64,000 nt of DNA from Deltaproteobacteria bacterium GWA2_45_12 (lineage in GTDB: Bacteria; UBA10199). Location: the NCBI GenBank assembly GCA_001797365.1, contig MGPH01000052.1, positions 29,624 through 93,623 on the forward strand, given 5' to 3'. A program made the position numbers and the translations under genes. A model generated the notes under the pieces. That model had not been told where the DNA came from, ran no database searches, and saw only the letters and a list, made by a program, of their open reading frames with translations. Below are positions 49,811 through 57,749 of the stretch, piece by piece (within the stretch, counting starts at the first letter, position 1; each line of letters begins with the position of its first letter).

Positions 49811-50275
49811 ATGAAGTTATTCATTCTTTTAATCTTACTTTGTATCACTTTTGTGTCTACTTCCTTGGCTTCAGATTCCATCCAGTCGGGCTTAAGCGAG
49901 GAGCAATTAATTCGTCTTAAAGGCCAACCCTATTATCAGACAGAGCATTATTCACACAAAAAAGGGGAACAGGTATGGCTTTATACCAAAAAAAAAGAAG
50001 ATAAAACTGTCGAAGAGAAAAAAATAATCGACTCCGAAACCCAATGGCCCACCCTTTACCGCAAAACGGTTACACGAACCTGCGATGTGGGAGATGTTTT
50101 TATGGAAGTATCGCAAGGAGTCGTCAAAAGCGTCATTCCCGCAAATGCCGCGATGGCTTATGGCCCTTGCGTGATTGCTACCCTTGAAGAATTCCTTCCC
50201 ATCGTGGATGGCAAACCCTCCGAAGTCCGATCCAGGAAAACGACGAAAACTGCTCTGGAAAAAAACGGGAAATGA
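49811..50275 (+). CDS. Small secreted protein, unknown
   Basis: A 154-residue protein with a Sec signal peptide (MKLFILLILLCITFVSTSLA). The mature part has two Cys (RTCDVGD and YGPCVIAT) likely in a disulfide, a Lys-rich middle (KKKEDKTVEEKKIID) and a strand-rich core. It resembles small periplasmic SmpA/OmlA-like or DUF2845-type proteins by feel (SEEQLIRLKGQPYYQTEHYS; the xxGxP pattern), but no firm call is made. The last eight codons plus stop lie inside the 28-bp repeat that recurs at 53931. Confidence 0.7.
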   Translation: MKLFILLILLCITFVSTSLASDSIQSGLSEEQLIRLKGQPYYQTEHYSHKKGEQVWLYTKKKEDKTVEEKKIIDSETQWPTLYRKTVTRTCDVGDVFMEVSQGVVKSVIPANAAMAYGPCVIATLEEFLPIVDGKPSEVRSRKTTKTALEKNGK

Positions 50276-50278
50276 AAG
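50251..50278 (+). repeat. 28-bp direct repeat, left copy
   Basis: Starts TGCTCTGG and ends GGGAAATGAAAG; identical to 53931-53958. The copies start exactly 3680 bp apart and bracket the two-gene cassette 50366-53843. This copy is the 3' end of the secreted-protein gene and includes its TGA. The short 50279-50365 stretch beyond it holds GTGCCAGGAAC, related to other GTGCCTGGCAC motifs nearby. Confidence 0.85.
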
Positions 50279-50365
50279 TGAAAATTTTAAACTTACACGC
50301 GTGCCAGGAACATTTGCAGGTTCTTGCTTAACTTGGGCATTAATGGATAACCCCTGCAACTTAAC

Positions 50366-51412
50366 TTATCGCAACATGCTGGTGCCATGGAGGATGTCGT
50401 CGAGCATTTTTTTTGTTTCATTTAACGTAAAAAGTTTTGTTGGATCAGCACCGGGAAAGTGAAAAATAAATTGGGGTTCTTGGAAGCGCGTTGCTTGTGG
50501 ATAAAATTCTTTTGCTGTTTTGCTATCAACCCATAAAAATTGTACCCAGCCTGGATATTTTTCTGCAAAAGTTTTAAATTGCTCTAATGTATTTTTTTGT
50601 TTTGATGAAGCCCCTGCTGAGAAACCAACAATGGTGATGCCCTTATCATAGGAGGTTCCCAAGGTTTCAATCAATGTTACCAGATCTGTTACAGATACGA
50701 TGCTTCGCGGAAATGGATCTGGTAAAGTTTCTGTGCCAAAGCCGCGATCAACAAATTGTGCCCCGCGCAAAAATACCATGCCACGATGAGCAAATCGAGA
50801 ACCTTGAATACTCGCCTGACCTCGCCAAAACATGCTTTGCTGTGAATCGTTCCCTGTTTGTGCCCCACGATAACCGAGTGCTGCGCTGTCGGTAAAATTG
50901 TGAAGAGCAGTTCCATCTGCATCTTGTCCAGAGTAGGCAAGCGCAAGATCGTTTGGATCCAACATATGTTGAACACCGATAATATTTGCTGCGCCGCATT
51001 CTTCAAAACGCATCACTCTTTGCGCTTCCGGAGGAATATTCCCTAATTCTTGTATGATGTCGGTTAATTTAAGCGCGCCAATCTGATGCTCTTTGCCTTC
51101 CCCACCTCCGTGCCCATTGGAGACAAATTCAACCGCAACATCTTTCCAAAATGCAGGGCCTTTTCCAGCAGTATCGAGCGCGACAATTTTTTGAATGACA
51201 TCGTGCAAATCTTTCAATTGATTGCCACGACATTGCACGGTGGCATTGCAAAAATCATATCTATTTCCGGCTAAAAGATAGACGGAATCATAACCTGCTG
51301 CCTTCCATGCGTCGGTCAGTTCGTGTTTGACTCCTGAGTCGAGAACGGCAACAGCATCACGATTTTGATCTGTTCCATCAAAAATAATTCCGATGCGAAT
51401 AAGTTTACTCAT
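50366..51412 (-). CDS. Hydrolase-like protein with FDGT and GFSAG motifs (DUF2235-like)
   Basis: A 348-residue protein. Seen: IRIGIIFDGTDQNRDA at the N-terminus, VEFVSNGHGGGEG in the middle, and KGITIVGFSAGASSKQ near residue 270, a possible GxSxG nucleophile elbow. The FDGT opening plus GFSxG layout recalls DUF2235-type alpha/beta hydrolases, some of which are type VI secretion phospholipase effectors. Similarity is loose, so activity is only suggested. No signal peptide. It starts 8 bp inside the upstream 812-residue gene, so the two are coupled, and both lie inside the 28-bp repeat bracket. Confidence 0.6.
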   Translation of the reverse strand: MSKLIRIGIIFDGTDQNRDAVAVLDSGVKHELTDAWKAAGYDSVYLLAGNRYDFCNATVQCRGNQLKDLHDVIQKIVALDTAGKGPAFWKDVAVEFVSNGHGGGEGKEHQIGALKLTDIIQELGNIPPEAQRVMRFEECGAANIIGVQHMLDPNDLALAYSGQDADGTALHNFTDSAALGYRGAQTGNDSQQSMFWRGQASIQGSRFAHRGMVFLRGAQFVDRGFGTETLPDPFPRSIVSVTDLVTLIETLGTSYDKGITIVGFSAGASSKQKNTLEQFKTFAEKYPGWVQFLWVDSKTAKEFYPQATRFQEPQFIFHFPGADPTKLFTLNETKKMLDDILHGTSMLR

Positions 51413-53843
51413 TTGGCACCTTTTCTTCTACACGCTTTCCGTGCCCTGATATACCACTGGTTCCGGTAATGTGAATCTGATACGTTGGCGTCTCGGATTT
51501 CTCTAAATTGAGCATGATTTTTTGGCGATATTTTTTCCCATTAACGGTACTTGTGATTTGATGGGTTGGTCTTATGTAATCATAGAATAGAGGCTTGAGT
51601 GAATAATTTGCCGTTGGAGTTAAAAATGGAATCTGAAATTGAAGATCCCATTCGTTATGACTTGTTTGTTTTACTTTTGTAATGGGAATGTACATTTTGA
51701 GATTATCTGGTCCTTGCAACTCAAAGGTCATGCGCTTAACGGATTTTTCGTTAAAGGAGAGCAAATCAAGATCACCAGGAACTTCGGGGATTGTCATATG
51801 TAAGGTTGTGGTCTCGCCTGCTTGCAATTCTGATTTGGCAAGCTTCCACTTCATGGAATGGTTGCGTTCAAAGTCGTCAACAGAAACTGAATCAATGGGG
51901 GAGTTCTGGGGAGGGGGCTCTTTTGCTGGTCGTAAATGAGGATCTGGATAATTGATCCCTTTCAAATAGGGAATATCAAGAAAAGCATTGATCGAAATTT
52001 GCCATTCACCAGCAGGGGCAGTGGGCAACTTAAAACTCAAAGTTCCTGCGACATGGAGTTTTTTGTTTCCATTTCTATAATCCCACCAACGGTCTTGTCG
52101 ATCGAACAGCAATGGAATTTTTAAGCGGCGTTTATTTTCCACCACATCCAAACGAGCTGTGCCAATTTCTTGAAAGCCTTCGAAATAAATATCCCCAGAT
52201 GCTATTGCTTGAACAAGAACGTCGTCAGTATCCGAAGACTGCACTTCCAATATGGTCCATGGAAATGGAGCTGGATATTTAGGCAGTTGTAGGCTCAAGG
52301 CATCGAAAGGGCTTGTTGCTTGGGGTGGTAAGGTAAAGGGGAAACTGATTCGTGCTTGTTTCCCCCCTGCAGTCACCACATCAAAGGCTACGTTGAGCTG
52401 TGCATCCTTCAATTTAAAAAAATGCTGATAGGGAAGAGTAAAAGTGTAGGCGGAAGAATCTTTTCCTTCACTTTTTTGTGCCATAAGGTTTTGGAAATAA
52501 TAAACCCTTCCAATTTTTGTGTTGCTCTCAAGATAGACTGTCATGTTTAATTTATTGGGCAACTGCAAGGCATCTTTTTTTGTTGGCGCTGGATTGATAA
52601 TGTTGACTTGAAATGTAATTTTATCGTTGGCTGTCTGCAATGGTGCCACTTTGAACACAGTCGCTTGTGCTGGTTCAGGAATAACGACTTCTCCAGTGAC
52701 TGGAATGTTTAATCGGAAACCCTTACTTTTTTCTTCAAGAACAACAACGGCACTTTTTTTTTCAACAACAACAACGGCAGCTTGTTTACGAATGTAGCTT
52801 GCTCCATTCAATACATAAGTGCCGGGTTTTGTCCAAGGCAGGATGGCTGATAAGCTATAATAAAGGCCCTTCTCTCCGGGCACGGGCTTAAAAGGTGACC
52901 AGCTTCTTTCTACGACTTCTCCAAGGCCCCCCTGGATGTTTATATCAGTAGCAATATTAGCTTGGACTATGGAATGAAACTGCCACGGAACATCTGATGG
53001 TAGTTGAATAAAAATGCCAATATATTTTTCTGTAACAAAGGGAGTTCCTTTCGCTTTGTTGTCTAAGGCCATGGTTGCCAGTTCCTGAAGAGTTTTTTCC
53101 GGAATGACAACCTCGCCTTCTGGTAGTTGAATGATTTTCGAAGAGACTTCCTGAGTTTGAGCAGGTTTAGTTGTTTCAAGCTTAGGTTCAGCCTTGGCAG
53201 CCTGTTGAGGTTTATTCAAGAGCGCTTCAAAAACATAATGTCTCTGGCCTGCCACTTCATGTTCGAGAAAATATTCCATACCTGAAAAAAGTTGCTGGCC
53301 CACACGGGTCGATTCATTTTCTTTCCAGCCCGCTTCCAAAGCGCAGAATGCTGTTGCGTTTTTTGTTTTGGTTTGGTCGCGCCATGTCGACCAAAGTGGA
53401 GTGCAGAGAAAATCAGGATTGTTATAATAAGGGACAAAACCATCAGCTAAGACATAGCTGCTGCCGTTTCGTTCATAGACAACATAATTTTTGAGCCACC
53501 CAATGACTTCTGCAAATTTATGCTCGCGATATCCAATGGAAGCTGTCTGAAAAATTATTTTTTTGAAACGCTTTTTTAACTCCTCTCCCCCGTACGTTTC
53601 TAGCGTTTTTATGAACGAGCTGATGGTTTCTGCTTCAACCCCATAAGCGGCAATGCGATCCCTCAAAATATAAAAAAGGTTACTTTTGGCGTTAGGGTTA
53701 TTTTGCTGCGCTTTGATAAATTGCTCATCAGCTGTGAATCGAGCGTTCCAATCGATGGGAGGCAGGGGACTGTCTTTCGGCGTTATTTGCTTATAAACCG
53801 CCGTTACTGCCTTTTCAGTCACTTTTAAGGATTTTTCTACCAT
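51405..53843 (-). CDS. Large beta-rich protein of the two-gene cassette, unknown
   Basis: An 812-residue protein with no signal peptide and no family I recognise. Residues 1-210 are helical with many aromatics (DWNARFTADEQFIKAQQNNP). From about residue 240 to the end the sequence looks like consecutive beta-sandwich domains (GEVVIPEKTLQEL, GEVVIPEPAQATVFKVAP as two similar phrases; long amphipathic strands thereafter). The duplicated GEVVIPE phrase suggests related domains. It is the first gene of the cassette and overlaps the hydrolase-like gene. A structural carrier or secreted-effector delivery role is possible, but not shown. Confidence 0.6.
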   Translation of the reverse strand: MVEKSLKVTEKAVTAVYKQITPKDSPLPPIDWNARFTADEQFIKAQQNNPNAKSNLFYILRDRIAAYGVEAETISSFIKTLETYGGEELKKRFKKIIFQTASIGYREHKFAEVIGWLKNYVVYERNGSSYVLADGFVPYYNNPDFLCTPLWSTWRDQTKTKNATAFCALEAGWKENESTRVGQQLFSGMEYFLEHEVAGQRHYVFEALLNKPQQAAKAEPKLETTKPAQTQEVSSKIIQLPEGEVVIPEKTLQELATMALDNKAKGTPFVTEKYIGIFIQLPSDVPWQFHSIVQANIATDINIQGGLGEVVERSWSPFKPVPGEKGLYYSLSAILPWTKPGTYVLNGASYIRKQAAVVVVEKKSAVVVLEEKSKGFRLNIPVTGEVVIPEPAQATVFKVAPLQTANDKITFQVNIINPAPTKKDALQLPNKLNMTVYLESNTKIGRVYYFQNLMAQKSEGKDSSAYTFTLPYQHFFKLKDAQLNVAFDVVTAGGKQARISFPFTLPPQATSPFDALSLQLPKYPAPFPWTILEVQSSDTDDVLVQAIASGDIYFEGFQEIGTARLDVVENKRRLKIPLLFDRQDRWWDYRNGNKKLHVAGTLSFKLPTAPAGEWQISINAFLDIPYLKGINYPDPHLRPAKEPPPQNSPIDSVSVDDFERNHSMKWKLAKSELQAGETTTLHMTIPEVPGDLDLLSFNEKSVKRMTFELQGPDNLKMYIPITKVKQTSHNEWDLQFQIPFLTPTANYSLKPLFYDYIRPTHQITSTVNGKKYRQKIMLNLEKSETPTYQIHITGTSGISGHGKRVEEKVPNE

Positions 53844-53930
53844 AGATCATTGAATGCATAGCCACCCTATAACAGTTATCGGTAGATTTTTGGGAAAGTT
53901 GTTAGATAACAAGACGTTTGTAACAAGGCG

Positions 53931-53958
53931 TGCTCTGGAAAAAAACGGGAAATGAAAG
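53931..53958 (+). repeat. 28-bp direct repeat, right copy
   Basis: Identical to 50251-50278. This copy is non-coding and lies between the cassette and the 1260-residue surface protein gene. Just outside it the sequence differs from the left copy on both sides, so the repeat is sharply bounded. Upstream of it 53874-53917 shows GTTATC/GATAAC inverted motifs. Confidence 0.85.
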
Positions 53959-53966
53959 CGATACGG

Positions 53967-56900
53967 CTACACTTCATTTTTGTTCCAACGAATTAGAACA
54001 ACAACGCCACCAAAAAATATCATGATCAAAAACACGGCTGATTTCCCCTCGGTTGATGGCAAAAGGGAACATCCCCCACCGCTTCCCGCCGAACCCGAAC
54101 TTCCTTCATCATCCCCTTCCCCAATAGCTCCACCATCATCCCCCTGAACAGCTCCCAGGAAACCGTTTCCGACAACGGCAAAATCGGTGAGATGGTTTTG
54201 ACTAAACGAGATGGTATCGGTGCTCCCATTAATTGTGGAATTGTTGATCTGCGTATAGGTTCCTGCAGAATCATCATAATAACTGGGTTCAATATCTCCC
54301 GTGGTAAGGCCCATGTTTTCAACCTGGGTGTTGTTGAAAGCAAGGGTGAATGTAGCGGGAGAATTCAATTGCGTAATGGCCACGTTGTTTTCATCAAAAG
54401 CATAGACAGAATAAGCGTAAAACGAAGCAGGTATCTTATTTGAGGTAAAGGGAGTGATGGTGATATCAACATTGACCGTCACCGTCTCATCGGCATCCCC
54501 CAAGGATCCTTGGGGAAAGAAAAACGATGTCCCGTCTGAAAGTTCAATAGAAACCGATTGGGTGGAAGCATCCGTCACCGTCATGCTTTTTGATTCAGGA
54601 ACGGTGGCCACATGATCCACTGCCAAAGTTCCCGTTCCCCCCTCGGCCGTACAGGTGACTGAAGTTGCCTCCGAAAGATAAATGGCATTGGCCACCTTTT
54701 TATGAGCCACACAATACCAGGTGTCATCGGTCGTGCAGGGAACAGTCGCTTGTCCACTTTCATCGGCGGTGGTTTCAAAGGACCCACCCTGGGGAGAAAA
54801 ACAATCAATGGTGCTGTAAGCCACAGGGCTCGAAGAAGCTGATTCGTCAGCATTGACAACCGCCTTTAAAGGAGTGGGGGCCTTCGATCGCCCGGCACCC
54901 ACGATCAAAGCTCGAACGGACTTTAAAGAAATCGAAGCCGCCACCTCATCTTCGGTAACCGTTATCAGGGTGGATCCGTCAGGCTCCTTAAAAGAAAGGC
55001 TTACTGAAGATGTCTGGTTGGCCACAACCGTGACTGCTTGTTCTTCAGGGTTATTCAACGATTCATCAATTTTCATGCTGTTGGGAACATGGGCATTGAC
55101 ATAATAAACAGTGCCCGAACCAGCCGCCGCACTGACATTGAGATTGCACTGACCATTTGCGTCCGTTTGACACCAACCCGAGCCGAAATTCCGCTGATAA
55201 TCATTAGCCCCTTCTTGCGCCGAAGAATAGGGATTGGCCTGAACGGTGACATTGGATCGACCACTGCCGTCCAAATCCAAAACAGTCACCTGAATGGTTC
55301 CCGTTTTTAAGAGAGTGATATTTTGGGCGACGGTTCCCGATGAACTTACCGTCACGGTGCTTGTCGTTGTTCCTGAAGAAGCCGAGGCCCAACCGCTTGC
55401 CGGATTGATCCAGTAACCCAACATCCATTCCCCTTCCGAAAGATCACAGGAAAAGCTTGAAGTGGTTGCCGTACAACTTCGATACATTTTACCCTTGGTG
55501 GCATAGACAGAAATATAGCCCGTATCGGAAAGATCAACGGCATCCCCATCGCCATCGACATAGGCTCCCGAAACAGCATTCTCAATAATCGGAGCCATGG
55601 TTATATTGACCGAACCCACTCCATCGCTGCAGGTGCCGATTTCTTCGGAATCCCCGACATAATCCGAATCATAAAACCATACATTGAATGAATACTCTGT
55701 TCCTTCCTGAACTTTGACGATCCCCGTTCCCGATTGCAACCAGCCCCATATGCCATAAAAATAATCCCCCGATCCAAAAGAAGTAGGCGTTGCATCGACA
55801 CTTCCGGAAACAGTGGAAATGATATTCCCGTTTGAATCAACCGCATTGACCGTCATGGAACAATCGCAGGTTGGAAACGTAAAATTGAGTGTTTGGCTCC
55901 CGCTGGTCGCTGTAACAGCCTGCATTCCCTCGTTACTGTAATTGCAGATGTCGGTATTGGATCCATCCCATGTATTAGCTGAGGCCGTCACATTGTAAGT
56001 TCTTCCTTCAACAGCATACACGGTATAAGTTCCATCATCGGCCGTTTCGGTCCAGAAATAATCCCCTGTATAAGTGGAACCACTATAGCTATTTCCATTG
56101 ATGTAGGCCTGAATCCCGTTTCCATCGCCATCGGTCACCCTTCCCGTAATTTGGGATGTTTTTTCTTGCATGACCAAACTAACTGAAGTGGTTTGGTTAG
56201 AACTTACCGTCACTTCCTGGCTTGTTGCCGCCAGATCTTGCCGATCCCATGGGGGATAAACCGACACGGTATAGGTTCCCGCCGGTAGAGTGGTTGTAAA
56301 AGCGCCACTAGAGTTGGTTTGGGCGGAAGCATACACCTGGGTTGAACTGGCAGTCCCCCCACTCACGGTAGCTGCCTTGACAACGTTAGCACTTACCGAT
56401 GCGGATGTTTGACCAGAAATTTGGTAGGCATTAATACTCACCCAGATATTGGCCAGTCCCGAAGATCCGTCTGTGACAATGCCCGACAAAGTGGCATCGT
56501 TTTCAAGAAAGGTCAGCGTTACATCAATGGGCTCGTTATCGCTTTCTTCAACAACGACGGTTGCCTGAGGGTAACCCGTTGCATCACAAGAATTCCAATT
56601 GAGGCAATAAGCCGAACACATGTAGGTTCCCGTCCCCACATCCAGTTCGTAAATTCCATTGCTTGACTCATAGTCAGATACATAATCCCAGGCTCCCCCT
56701 TGCTGATAGCATGATACCGACATCCCACTGATGATGGCCCCATCCCCCGCATATAATTGCACATGAATATCCTTGTCCTTAACCTGGTAGGCCAATTCGG
56801 CATCCACCGTTGTATCTGAAGAATTGACCGTGACATAAGTACTTGGATTTCCCGAATAGCTGCATGGCCATGTGTTGCAATAGGAAGAGCAATAATAAGT

Positions 56901-57749
56901 GCCTTCTGTTACTAAAATTTCATACAGACCCGCATCGGAAGCCTCCGACGTGCTTGAATAACCCCATGGGGATGCTTGCTGACTGCAAGAAACCGTCATT
57001 CCATCGGTCACTTCCTCACTTCCGGCTGTCACAGCGATACGGATTGTCTTGTCCTTGACGCTTGCTGTCAGTGCGGCTGTGGCGGCATCACCCCCATCGG
57101 TAACAGTAACAGTAGCCTGACTAAAATTGCTATAGGGACATGAGCTGCCCTGATTATTCCAGTAAGTCCAATCACAATAGGCGTAACAGGTGTAAGTCCC
57201 GGGTGTAGAATTCAACACATAAACACCCTCTGTGGACTCATCAATCCAGGCATAACCCCAAGGCGAAGAGTTTTGGGAACATGAAACATCCATTCCCTCT
57301 GTAACAGGAGTGCCTCCTGCGCTTAGCGTCACCTCGATGGTTTCATCCTTGGAGATAAACTGAAGATTTTTTTCCTGAGTCTGGGCACAATCAATAGAAA
57401 CGGATTCATAGCTTGTGCTACTTGAAGCCGAGGAATTACCCCACTGATAGGCGTACACTTCGCAAGAACTCCAGCTGTAACTCGAATAAGTAGAAGAGCA
57501 GGGATTATAAAAATCATCGCTTGACTCAAACTCATATTCTCCATTTGAATTTGTTTGGGTCCAATCTGAAGAATAAATCCACCCAGACCCACGGCAGGAA
57601 AGACTTACCGAGGCACTTCCCGTATAAGCCTCATTATTAAATTGAACCTGACCTTGAAGATAGACAGAAGCGTAACCATCAAGGCTAAGGCTAAAAACAA
57701 AAACGAGAAAAAAGACAAAAATCCCCCAAATCCTTTGGATAGATCCCAT
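53967..57749 (-). CDS. Large surface protein with Cys-rich repeats and a C-terminal sorting-type tail
   Basis: A 1260-residue exported protein: signal peptide (IWGIFVFFLVFVFSLSLDGYA), then about four tandem 85-95 residue repeats built on a GM-x-VSC-x-Q core with PWGY, ESxxGxYE and GTYxCxxYC. Next come several carboxypeptidase-regulatory-like beta-sandwich domains (GIVTDGSSGLANIWVSINAY, GRVTDGDGNGIQAYINGNSY), a Ser/Thr-rich region, and a ZU5-like stretch (VSIELSDGTSFFFPQGSLGD). It ends GSAGSGGGCSLLPS, a membrane span (AVFLIMIFFGGVVVLI) and RWNKNEV, a Cys-TM-basic tail like MYXO-CTERM-type sorting signals. Likely surface anchored; adhesin or structural role inferred. Confidence 0.82.
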   Translation of the reverse strand: MGSIQRIWGIFVFFLVFVFSLSLDGYASVYLQGQVQFNNEAYTGSASVSLSCRGSGWIYSSDWTQTNSNGEYEFESSDDFYNPCSSTYSSYSWSSCEVYAYQWGNSSASSSTSYESVSIDCAQTQEKNLQFISKDETIEVTLSAGGTPVTEGMDVSCSQNSSPWGYAWIDESTEGVYVLNSTPGTYTCYAYCDWTYWNNQGSSCPYSNFSQATVTVTDGGDAATAALTASVKDKTIRIAVTAGSEEVTDGMTVSCSQQASPWGYSSTSEASDAGLYEILVTEGTYYCSSYCNTWPCSYSGNPSTYVTVNSSDTTVDAELAYQVKDKDIHVQLYAGDGAIISGMSVSCYQQGGAWDYVSDYESSNGIYELDVGTGTYMCSAYCLNWNSCDATGYPQATVVVEESDNEPIDVTLTFLENDATLSGIVTDGSSGLANIWVSINAYQISGQTSASVSANVVKAATVSGGTASSTQVYASAQTNSSGAFTTTLPAGTYTVSVYPPWDRQDLAATSQEVTVSSNQTTSVSLVMQEKTSQITGRVTDGDGNGIQAYINGNSYSGSTYTGDYFWTETADDGTYTVYAVEGRTYNVTASANTWDGSNTDICNYSNEGMQAVTATSGSQTLNFTFPTCDCSMTVNAVDSNGNIISTVSGSVDATPTSFGSGDYFYGIWGWLQSGTGIVKVQEGTEYSFNVWFYDSDYVGDSEEIGTCSDGVGSVNITMAPIIENAVSGAYVDGDGDAVDLSDTGYISVYATKGKMYRSCTATTSSFSCDLSEGEWMLGYWINPASGWASASSGTTTSTVTVSSSGTVAQNITLLKTGTIQVTVLDLDGSGRSNVTVQANPYSSAQEGANDYQRNFGSGWCQTDANGQCNLNVSAAAGSGTVYYVNAHVPNSMKIDESLNNPEEQAVTVVANQTSSVSLSFKEPDGSTLITVTEDEVAASISLKSVRALIVGAGRSKAPTPLKAVVNADESASSSPVAYSTIDCFSPQGGSFETTADESGQATVPCTTDDTWYCVAHKKVANAIYLSEATSVTCTAEGGTGTLAVDHVATVPESKSMTVTDASTQSVSIELSDGTSFFFPQGSLGDADETVTVNVDITITPFTSNKIPASFYAYSVYAFDENNVAITQLNSPATFTLAFNNTQVENMGLTTGDIEPSYYDDSAGTYTQINNSTINGSTDTISFSQNHLTDFAVVGNGFLGAVQGDDGGAIGEGDDEGSSGSAGSGGGCSLLPSTEGKSAVFLIMIFFGGVVVLIRWNKNEV

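Follow-up and report, generated by a model that had tools for sequence, protein, structure and literature searches.

Caspase-type proteases are kin of the enzymes that execute cell death in animals, and their bacterial homologues have been studied as proteases of the stress response, of toxin-antitoxin systems and of immunity. To our knowledge, the partners that switch on bacterial caspases are known for few of them. In the literature that we searched, bacterial caspases were connected with toxin-antitoxin pairs and with conflict systems. The orthocaspase MaOC1 of Microcystis aeruginosa, for example, is associated with a toxin-antitoxin pair situated between identical direct repeats, and the protease cleaves the antitoxin (PMC7935541). 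The repeats in that organism are 152 bp long and fence the toxin-antitoxin pair, not the caspase (PMC7935541). Here we describe a gene pair lying between two copies of a much shorter repeat in a 64-kb stretch of DNA (the window) from the draft genome of Deltaproteobacteria bacterium GWA2_45_12 (2.46 Mb, 68 contigs, 95% complete). The smaller product, of 348 aa, is most likely a diverged clan CD caspase homologue with a predicted His101/Cys139 dyad; its thioredoxin domain appears to be dead, and the larger product is most likely its dedicated partner. The features of the locus are collected in Table 1.

Table 1. Features of the repeat-bounded gene pair and its left flank (positions in the window)
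Feature	Position	Strand	Basis or remark
Intact 154-aa secreted-protein gene, its 3' end carrying the left repeat (target gene)	49811..50275	+	
Left repeat copy, TGCTCTGGAAAAAAACGGGAAATGAAAG	50251..50278	+	holds the last codons and the stop of the secreted-protein gene
Gene of the predicted 348-aa caspase-like (clan CD) protease homologue with degenerate C-terminal thioredoxin-like domain	50366..51412	-	
Thioredoxin-like C-terminal domain, about residues 235-348	50369..50710	-	alignment, profile, PDB matches
Putative caspase-like domain (residues 1-165, approximately) of the 348-aa product	50918..51412	-	predicted secondary structure, Foldseek, alignment
Codon of predicted catalytic Cys139 (FEECGAAN)	50996..50998	-	invariant in 8 homologues
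Codon of predicted catalytic His101 (NGHGGGEG)	51110..51112	-	invariant in 8 homologues
Gene of the 812-aa partner protein	51405..53843	-	
87-bp leader of the gene pair with palindrome TTGTTAGATAACAA, candidate promoter or operator	53844..53930	-	read from sequence
Right repeat copy, TGCTCTGGAAAAAAACGGGAAATGAAAG, exact	53931..53958	+	

Exactly two long ORFs (348 and 812 aa) were present between the repeats, in agreement with the preliminary description, which had reported two coupled minus-strand genes; they overlap by 8 bp, so that their translation is probably coupled. As had also been stated there, no recombinase was found within the cassette. The leader contains TTGTTAGATAACAA as a perfect palindrome, with a further TAACAAGGCG near the right repeat. 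The gene to the left had been taken for a disrupted one, which we could not uphold, because the 154-aa gene is intact and has its own stop inside the left repeat copy, and its homologue in another genome (G003; 55-57% identity) is of equal length and stops at the corresponding position. Beyond the right repeat (53967-57749) there is a gene for a 1260-aa secreted protein with carboxypeptidase-regulatory-like repeats, with homologues encoded by 8 further genomes of the phylum, at no more than 51% identity and in varying contexts.

The two copies of the 28-bp sequence are identical and lie 3680 bp apart from start to start, exactly as first reported. This was the longest exact direct repeat in the 64-kb window, and a chance origin was ruled out by simulation, since the longest exact repeat in 60 order-3 Markov windows did not exceed 19 bp (mean 16). 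When up to 3 mismatches were allowed, the 2.46-Mb genome had just 2 copies of the site, and the reversed-pattern control had 0. When about 356 kb of this genome were surveyed, the other long repeats were, as judged by eye, dispersed palindromes, tandem arrays or intragenic repeats; the genome-wide count and this survey ruled out a genome-dispersed repeat family for the 28-bp sequence. A dif/Xer site was rejected as well, the repeat matching the E. coli dif at 9-10 of 28 positions with a half-site symmetry of 2 in 11. One of the dispersed palindromes of this genome, GTAAGGGCAATTCATGAATTGCCCTTAC, is REP-like and was seen at two loci (L022, 4239 and 8526; L040, 4485 and 9207).

Among 60 related genomes, relatives of both proteins were found in G032 only, a groundwater metagenome assembly labelled Deltaproteobacteria, where the two genes stand side by side, with order and orientation as in the window and a 2-bp gap between them. 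The identity between the pair members of the window and those of G032 was 28% and 32%. The two proteins were thus together in both known carriers, and a pairing kept in such distant members supports a functional unit. A profile of the 812-aa protein matched 2 of 385 genomes, namely the window's genome and G032, and a profile of the 348-aa protein matched the same two only among 46 genomes of the phylum. Searches of genome contigs gave no relatives with the 812-aa protein and the G032 contig only with the 348-aa alignment. Both proteins were absent from relatives in the same order as the window's genome, and searches of phages, plasmids and viral contigs yielded no relatives of the pair. The gene pair is very rare and patchy. 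No comparable repeat flanks the G032 pair, so that the genes also occur without it; the preliminary description had named such a carrier among the findings that would speak against it, and this counts against the repeat as a part of the system. A gene for a VWA (and HEAT-like) protein runs divergently from the G032 pair at a distance of 45 bp (L019, 7591-9084); it has no counterpart beside the pair of the window.

The 348-aa protein gave no match in scans against Pfam and NCBIfam, including none to the C11, C13, C14 and C25 family profiles. Its FDGT and GFSAG strings, both of them present, had been read as hydrolase-like, which would make the pair a secreted-lipase-like alpha/beta-hydrolase effector, with GFSAG as the nucleophile elbow, and its carrier or immunity partner. 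However, GFSAG (263-267) is not conserved, being VCYNL in G032, and it aligns with LFAAS directly before the CGAC of thioredoxins, whose cysteines correspond to S269 and Q272; in addition, no hydrolase family was matched in Pfam, NCBIfam or PHROGs, and the Foldseek matches were caspases. An alpha/beta hydrolase was thus ruled out by the unconserved GxSxG and the fold evidence, and we regard the effector reading as highly improbable. Fold and profile evidence pointed instead to a caspase followed by a thioredoxin, so that the earlier view that neither protein could be assigned holds for the 812-aa protein, which has no family, and fails for the 348-aa one.

The caspase-like reading had been suggested before the fold search by the pairwise comparison of the small proteins of the window and G032, in which G-H101-G and E-C139 were kept and GFSAG was not. 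In an alignment of eight sequences (the two pair members and 6 caspase-thioredoxin proteins), 10 columns were invariant in 8/8, among them G100-H101-G102, R132 and C139, where "invariant" has to be read against the small number of sequences, only two pair members being known. According to the predicted secondary structure, the His follows strand 92-101 (beta-3) and the Cys follows strand 131-139 (beta-4). Caspases made up the whole top 20 of the Foldseek matches of the 348-aa model in the PDB (best E 2.2e-4), and PIG-K and legumain came further down the ranking, although these matches are weak when taken alone because the mean pLDDT of the model was 41. Profile-profile alignment (hhalign) of the pair with the 6 caspase-thioredoxin proteins gave a score of 61.4 (E 6e-8), collinear over 266 columns, as compared with 19.9 for the reversed profile and a maximum of 23.9 in 60 column shuffles. 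The thioredoxin part scored 41.1 and the caspase part 23.1, about as much as the best shuffle. By profile, the caspase half thus does not reach significance on its own, and its assignment draws on the collinear alignment, the invariance of the dyad and the fold matches. Profile searches started from the pair and, independently, from PF00656 reached the same ORFs in two genomes (G025 and G012), which are caspase-thioredoxin fusions; PF00656 gave no match in the window's own genome.

Judging from these residues, the 348-aa protein would have proteolytic activity. Its function may have shifted, since the context of the Cys motif is unusual (FEECGAAN as against D-x-C-x-S/G-G) and both the thioredoxin site and the EF-hand-like site have degenerated, and the same features would suit a pseudo-protease, that is, a non-catalytic caspase-like scaffold regulating the large partner. 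We consider this unlikely, because both residues of the dyad, like the GHG and R132, have been kept without change in members that are highly diverged.

The C-terminal part had weak but consistent sequence matches to PDI and thioredoxin in the PDB (E 0.02-0.15), an independent hint of the thioredoxin domain. The alignment showed that the CxxC active site is absent from this domain of the window protein, with S269 and Q272 in its place, and that the EF-hand-like loop is degenerate. The C-terminal thioredoxin domain of the small protein of G032 is also dead, and this protein has an extra N-terminal thioredoxin-like domain with CKAC. The thioredoxin fold of the window protein appears to be redox-dead.

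The 6 caspase-thioredoxin reference proteins matched the Pfam models Thioredoxin (6/6), Peptidase_C14 (3/6) and C13 (2/6), and when the phylum was searched with a profile of such proteins, about 20 long matches took in the caspase region, besides many ordinary thioredoxins. Several of the caspase-thioredoxin proteins encoded at loci L077, L078, L079, L080, L086 and L135-L139 have long C-terminal extensions, some of them HEAT-like; the HG...C dyad and CxxC are present in most, and the proteins are widespread in the phylum. The literature searched held no description of a caspase-thioredoxin fusion. The window protein shares with the caspase-thioredoxin(-HEAT) proteins the collinear succession of caspase, EF-hand-like loop and thioredoxin. 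It differs from them in having no CxxC, a degenerate loop and an extra conserved segment at about 194-235, and, unlike it, the family members examined had no such partner gene. In the tree, which was rooted at the midpoint only, the window and G032 proteins made up a long-branched group of their own (100/100). The best reading of these sequence comparisons is that the 348-aa protein arose from the caspase-thioredoxin proteins that are common in the phylum, or is a sister to them. Profile searches found no intact canonical copy in the window's genome. A decayed canonical remnant was seen on the same contig outside the window (C52:3789-4043, L039), consisting of an 84-aa piece that contains VTGHG and, after it, HEAT-like debris.

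The 812-aa partner had no family match in Pfam or NCBIfam. Its model (pLDDT 36) showed helices over residues 1-120 or so, with beta strands beginning at about 395, and Foldseek returned complement/macroglobulin and other multi-domain beta chains at a TM of about 0.1; the protein probably consists of a helical N-terminal part and beta-sandwich domains. Neither protein had an evident signal peptide or TM segment, and 0 families of the PADLOC-DB models were matched by either protein or by their homologues. As this model is worse than that of the 348-aa protein, the role of the partner is argued from operon logic, and coupling and pairing suggest that it may be a sensor, scaffold or substrate of the protease.

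An exact repeat that overlaps the 3' end of a gene fits a site-specific insertion, and a repeat in this position with cargo between the copies is the arrangement of a cis-mobilizable element, with a putative att function. According to this explanation, the copies would be attL and attR, and the insertion would have been mediated by an integrase encoded elsewhere. The rare and patchy occurrence of the pair agrees with it, and the window's genome has three tyrosine recombinases, of which the one on contig C5 (a 379-aa ORF), the most diverged of the three from the Pfam model, is preceded by an excisionase-like small ORF. This stretch (L128, 8161-9580), with its small HTH/excisionase-like ORF and the 379-aa integrase, could be an integrated element. 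Nevertheless, no third copy of the 28-bp site was found at up to 3 mismatches anywhere in the genome, including beside the C5 integrase, and no att-like repeat was found around this integrase; moreover, the site has no palindromic core and is not dif-like, and the G032 copy of the pair has no repeat. In our judgement a cis-mobilizable element is possible but rather doubtful.

The repeat could also be the relic of a one-off illegitimate event, such as a local duplication or repair-template switching with duplication of 28 bp, the genes being resident or anciently acquired. The base composition of the cassette, which had been proposed as a check, was only mildly atypical (tetranucleotide distance in the 75th percentile, GC in the 9th); GC3 of the 348-aa gene was in the 0.6th percentile and codon usage was ordinary. 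This near-normal composition and codon usage, the lack of a recombinase and the G032 pair without a repeat are in favour of such an event. On the other hand, the repeat is still exact, which calls for a recent event or for maintenance of the repeat; the lack of both proteins in relatives of the same order is a further argument against it. We judge a one-off event to be a serious candidate, falling slightly short of probable. An empty site with conserved flanks was not found in the compared genomes, which were no nearer than the same order. The secreted-protein gene was found without the cassette, as had been suggested for a check, but its one close homologue, in G003, has different neighbours, and homologues of the 1260-aa neighbour occur in other contexts in G023, G018 and G032. 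Mobility of the cassette is plausible and unproven.

Taking together the observed repeat, pairing, domain homology and dyad conservation, we infer for the biological function and the insertion of the pair a mechanism that we hold to be moderately probable, namely that it is a two-protein caspase-type module in which the partner would act as sensor, scaffold or substrate, and that a recombinase or a rearrangement brought it to its place at a gene's 3' end. The two proteins would be made in a fixed ratio via translational coupling, and the 812-aa protein, most likely a dedicated sensor, scaffold or substrate, would hold the protease inactive. On a trigger, the protease would cleave the 812-aa partner or another target, and the cleavage would probably serve a cytoplasmic stress or defence response. 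The pair would have arrived by an insertion at the 3' end of the gene in which the 28-bp sequence was either duplicated or brought along; the agent would be a site-specific recombinase, supplied in trans or lost afterwards, or else the insertion would go back to a one-off rearrangement. A bolder version of this proposal, to which we give little credence at present, is a horizontally moving two-component caspase module, in which the dead thioredoxin would be a docking surface and the beta-sandwich sensor or substrate a leash, carried by a recombinase-free cassette whose 28-bp sites would preserve the 3' end of the target.

The pair is a compact operon that combines an invariant predicted dyad with a dedicated partner, and caspase-thioredoxin fusions abound in its phylum. 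If the partner were a substrate or sensor, it would provide a two-gene test case for the control of bacterial caspases, and for whether such modules move on minimal repeat-bounded cassettes.

Compared with the bacterial caspase homologues (orthocaspases and metacaspases, MEROPS clan CD, PF00656/PF01650), the 348-aa protein is alike in its predicted beta-alpha order, with the His after strand 3 and the Cys after strand 4. It differs from them in having no Pfam match, an unusual Cys motif and a dead thioredoxin domain, and in being coupled to a large partner with no known family. Cis-mobilizable elements (CIMEs) and att-flanked islets resemble the cassette in having direct repeats at a gene's 3' end that enclose cargo but no recombinase, whereas a related integrase/att pair was not found in the window's genome and the mobility of the cassette is putative. 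As compared with the MaOC1 locus, the repeat of the window is only 28 bp long and contains a gene end, and ParDE-like proteins were not found; nonetheless, each of the two loci has a caspase homologue associated with a repeat-fenced gene pair.
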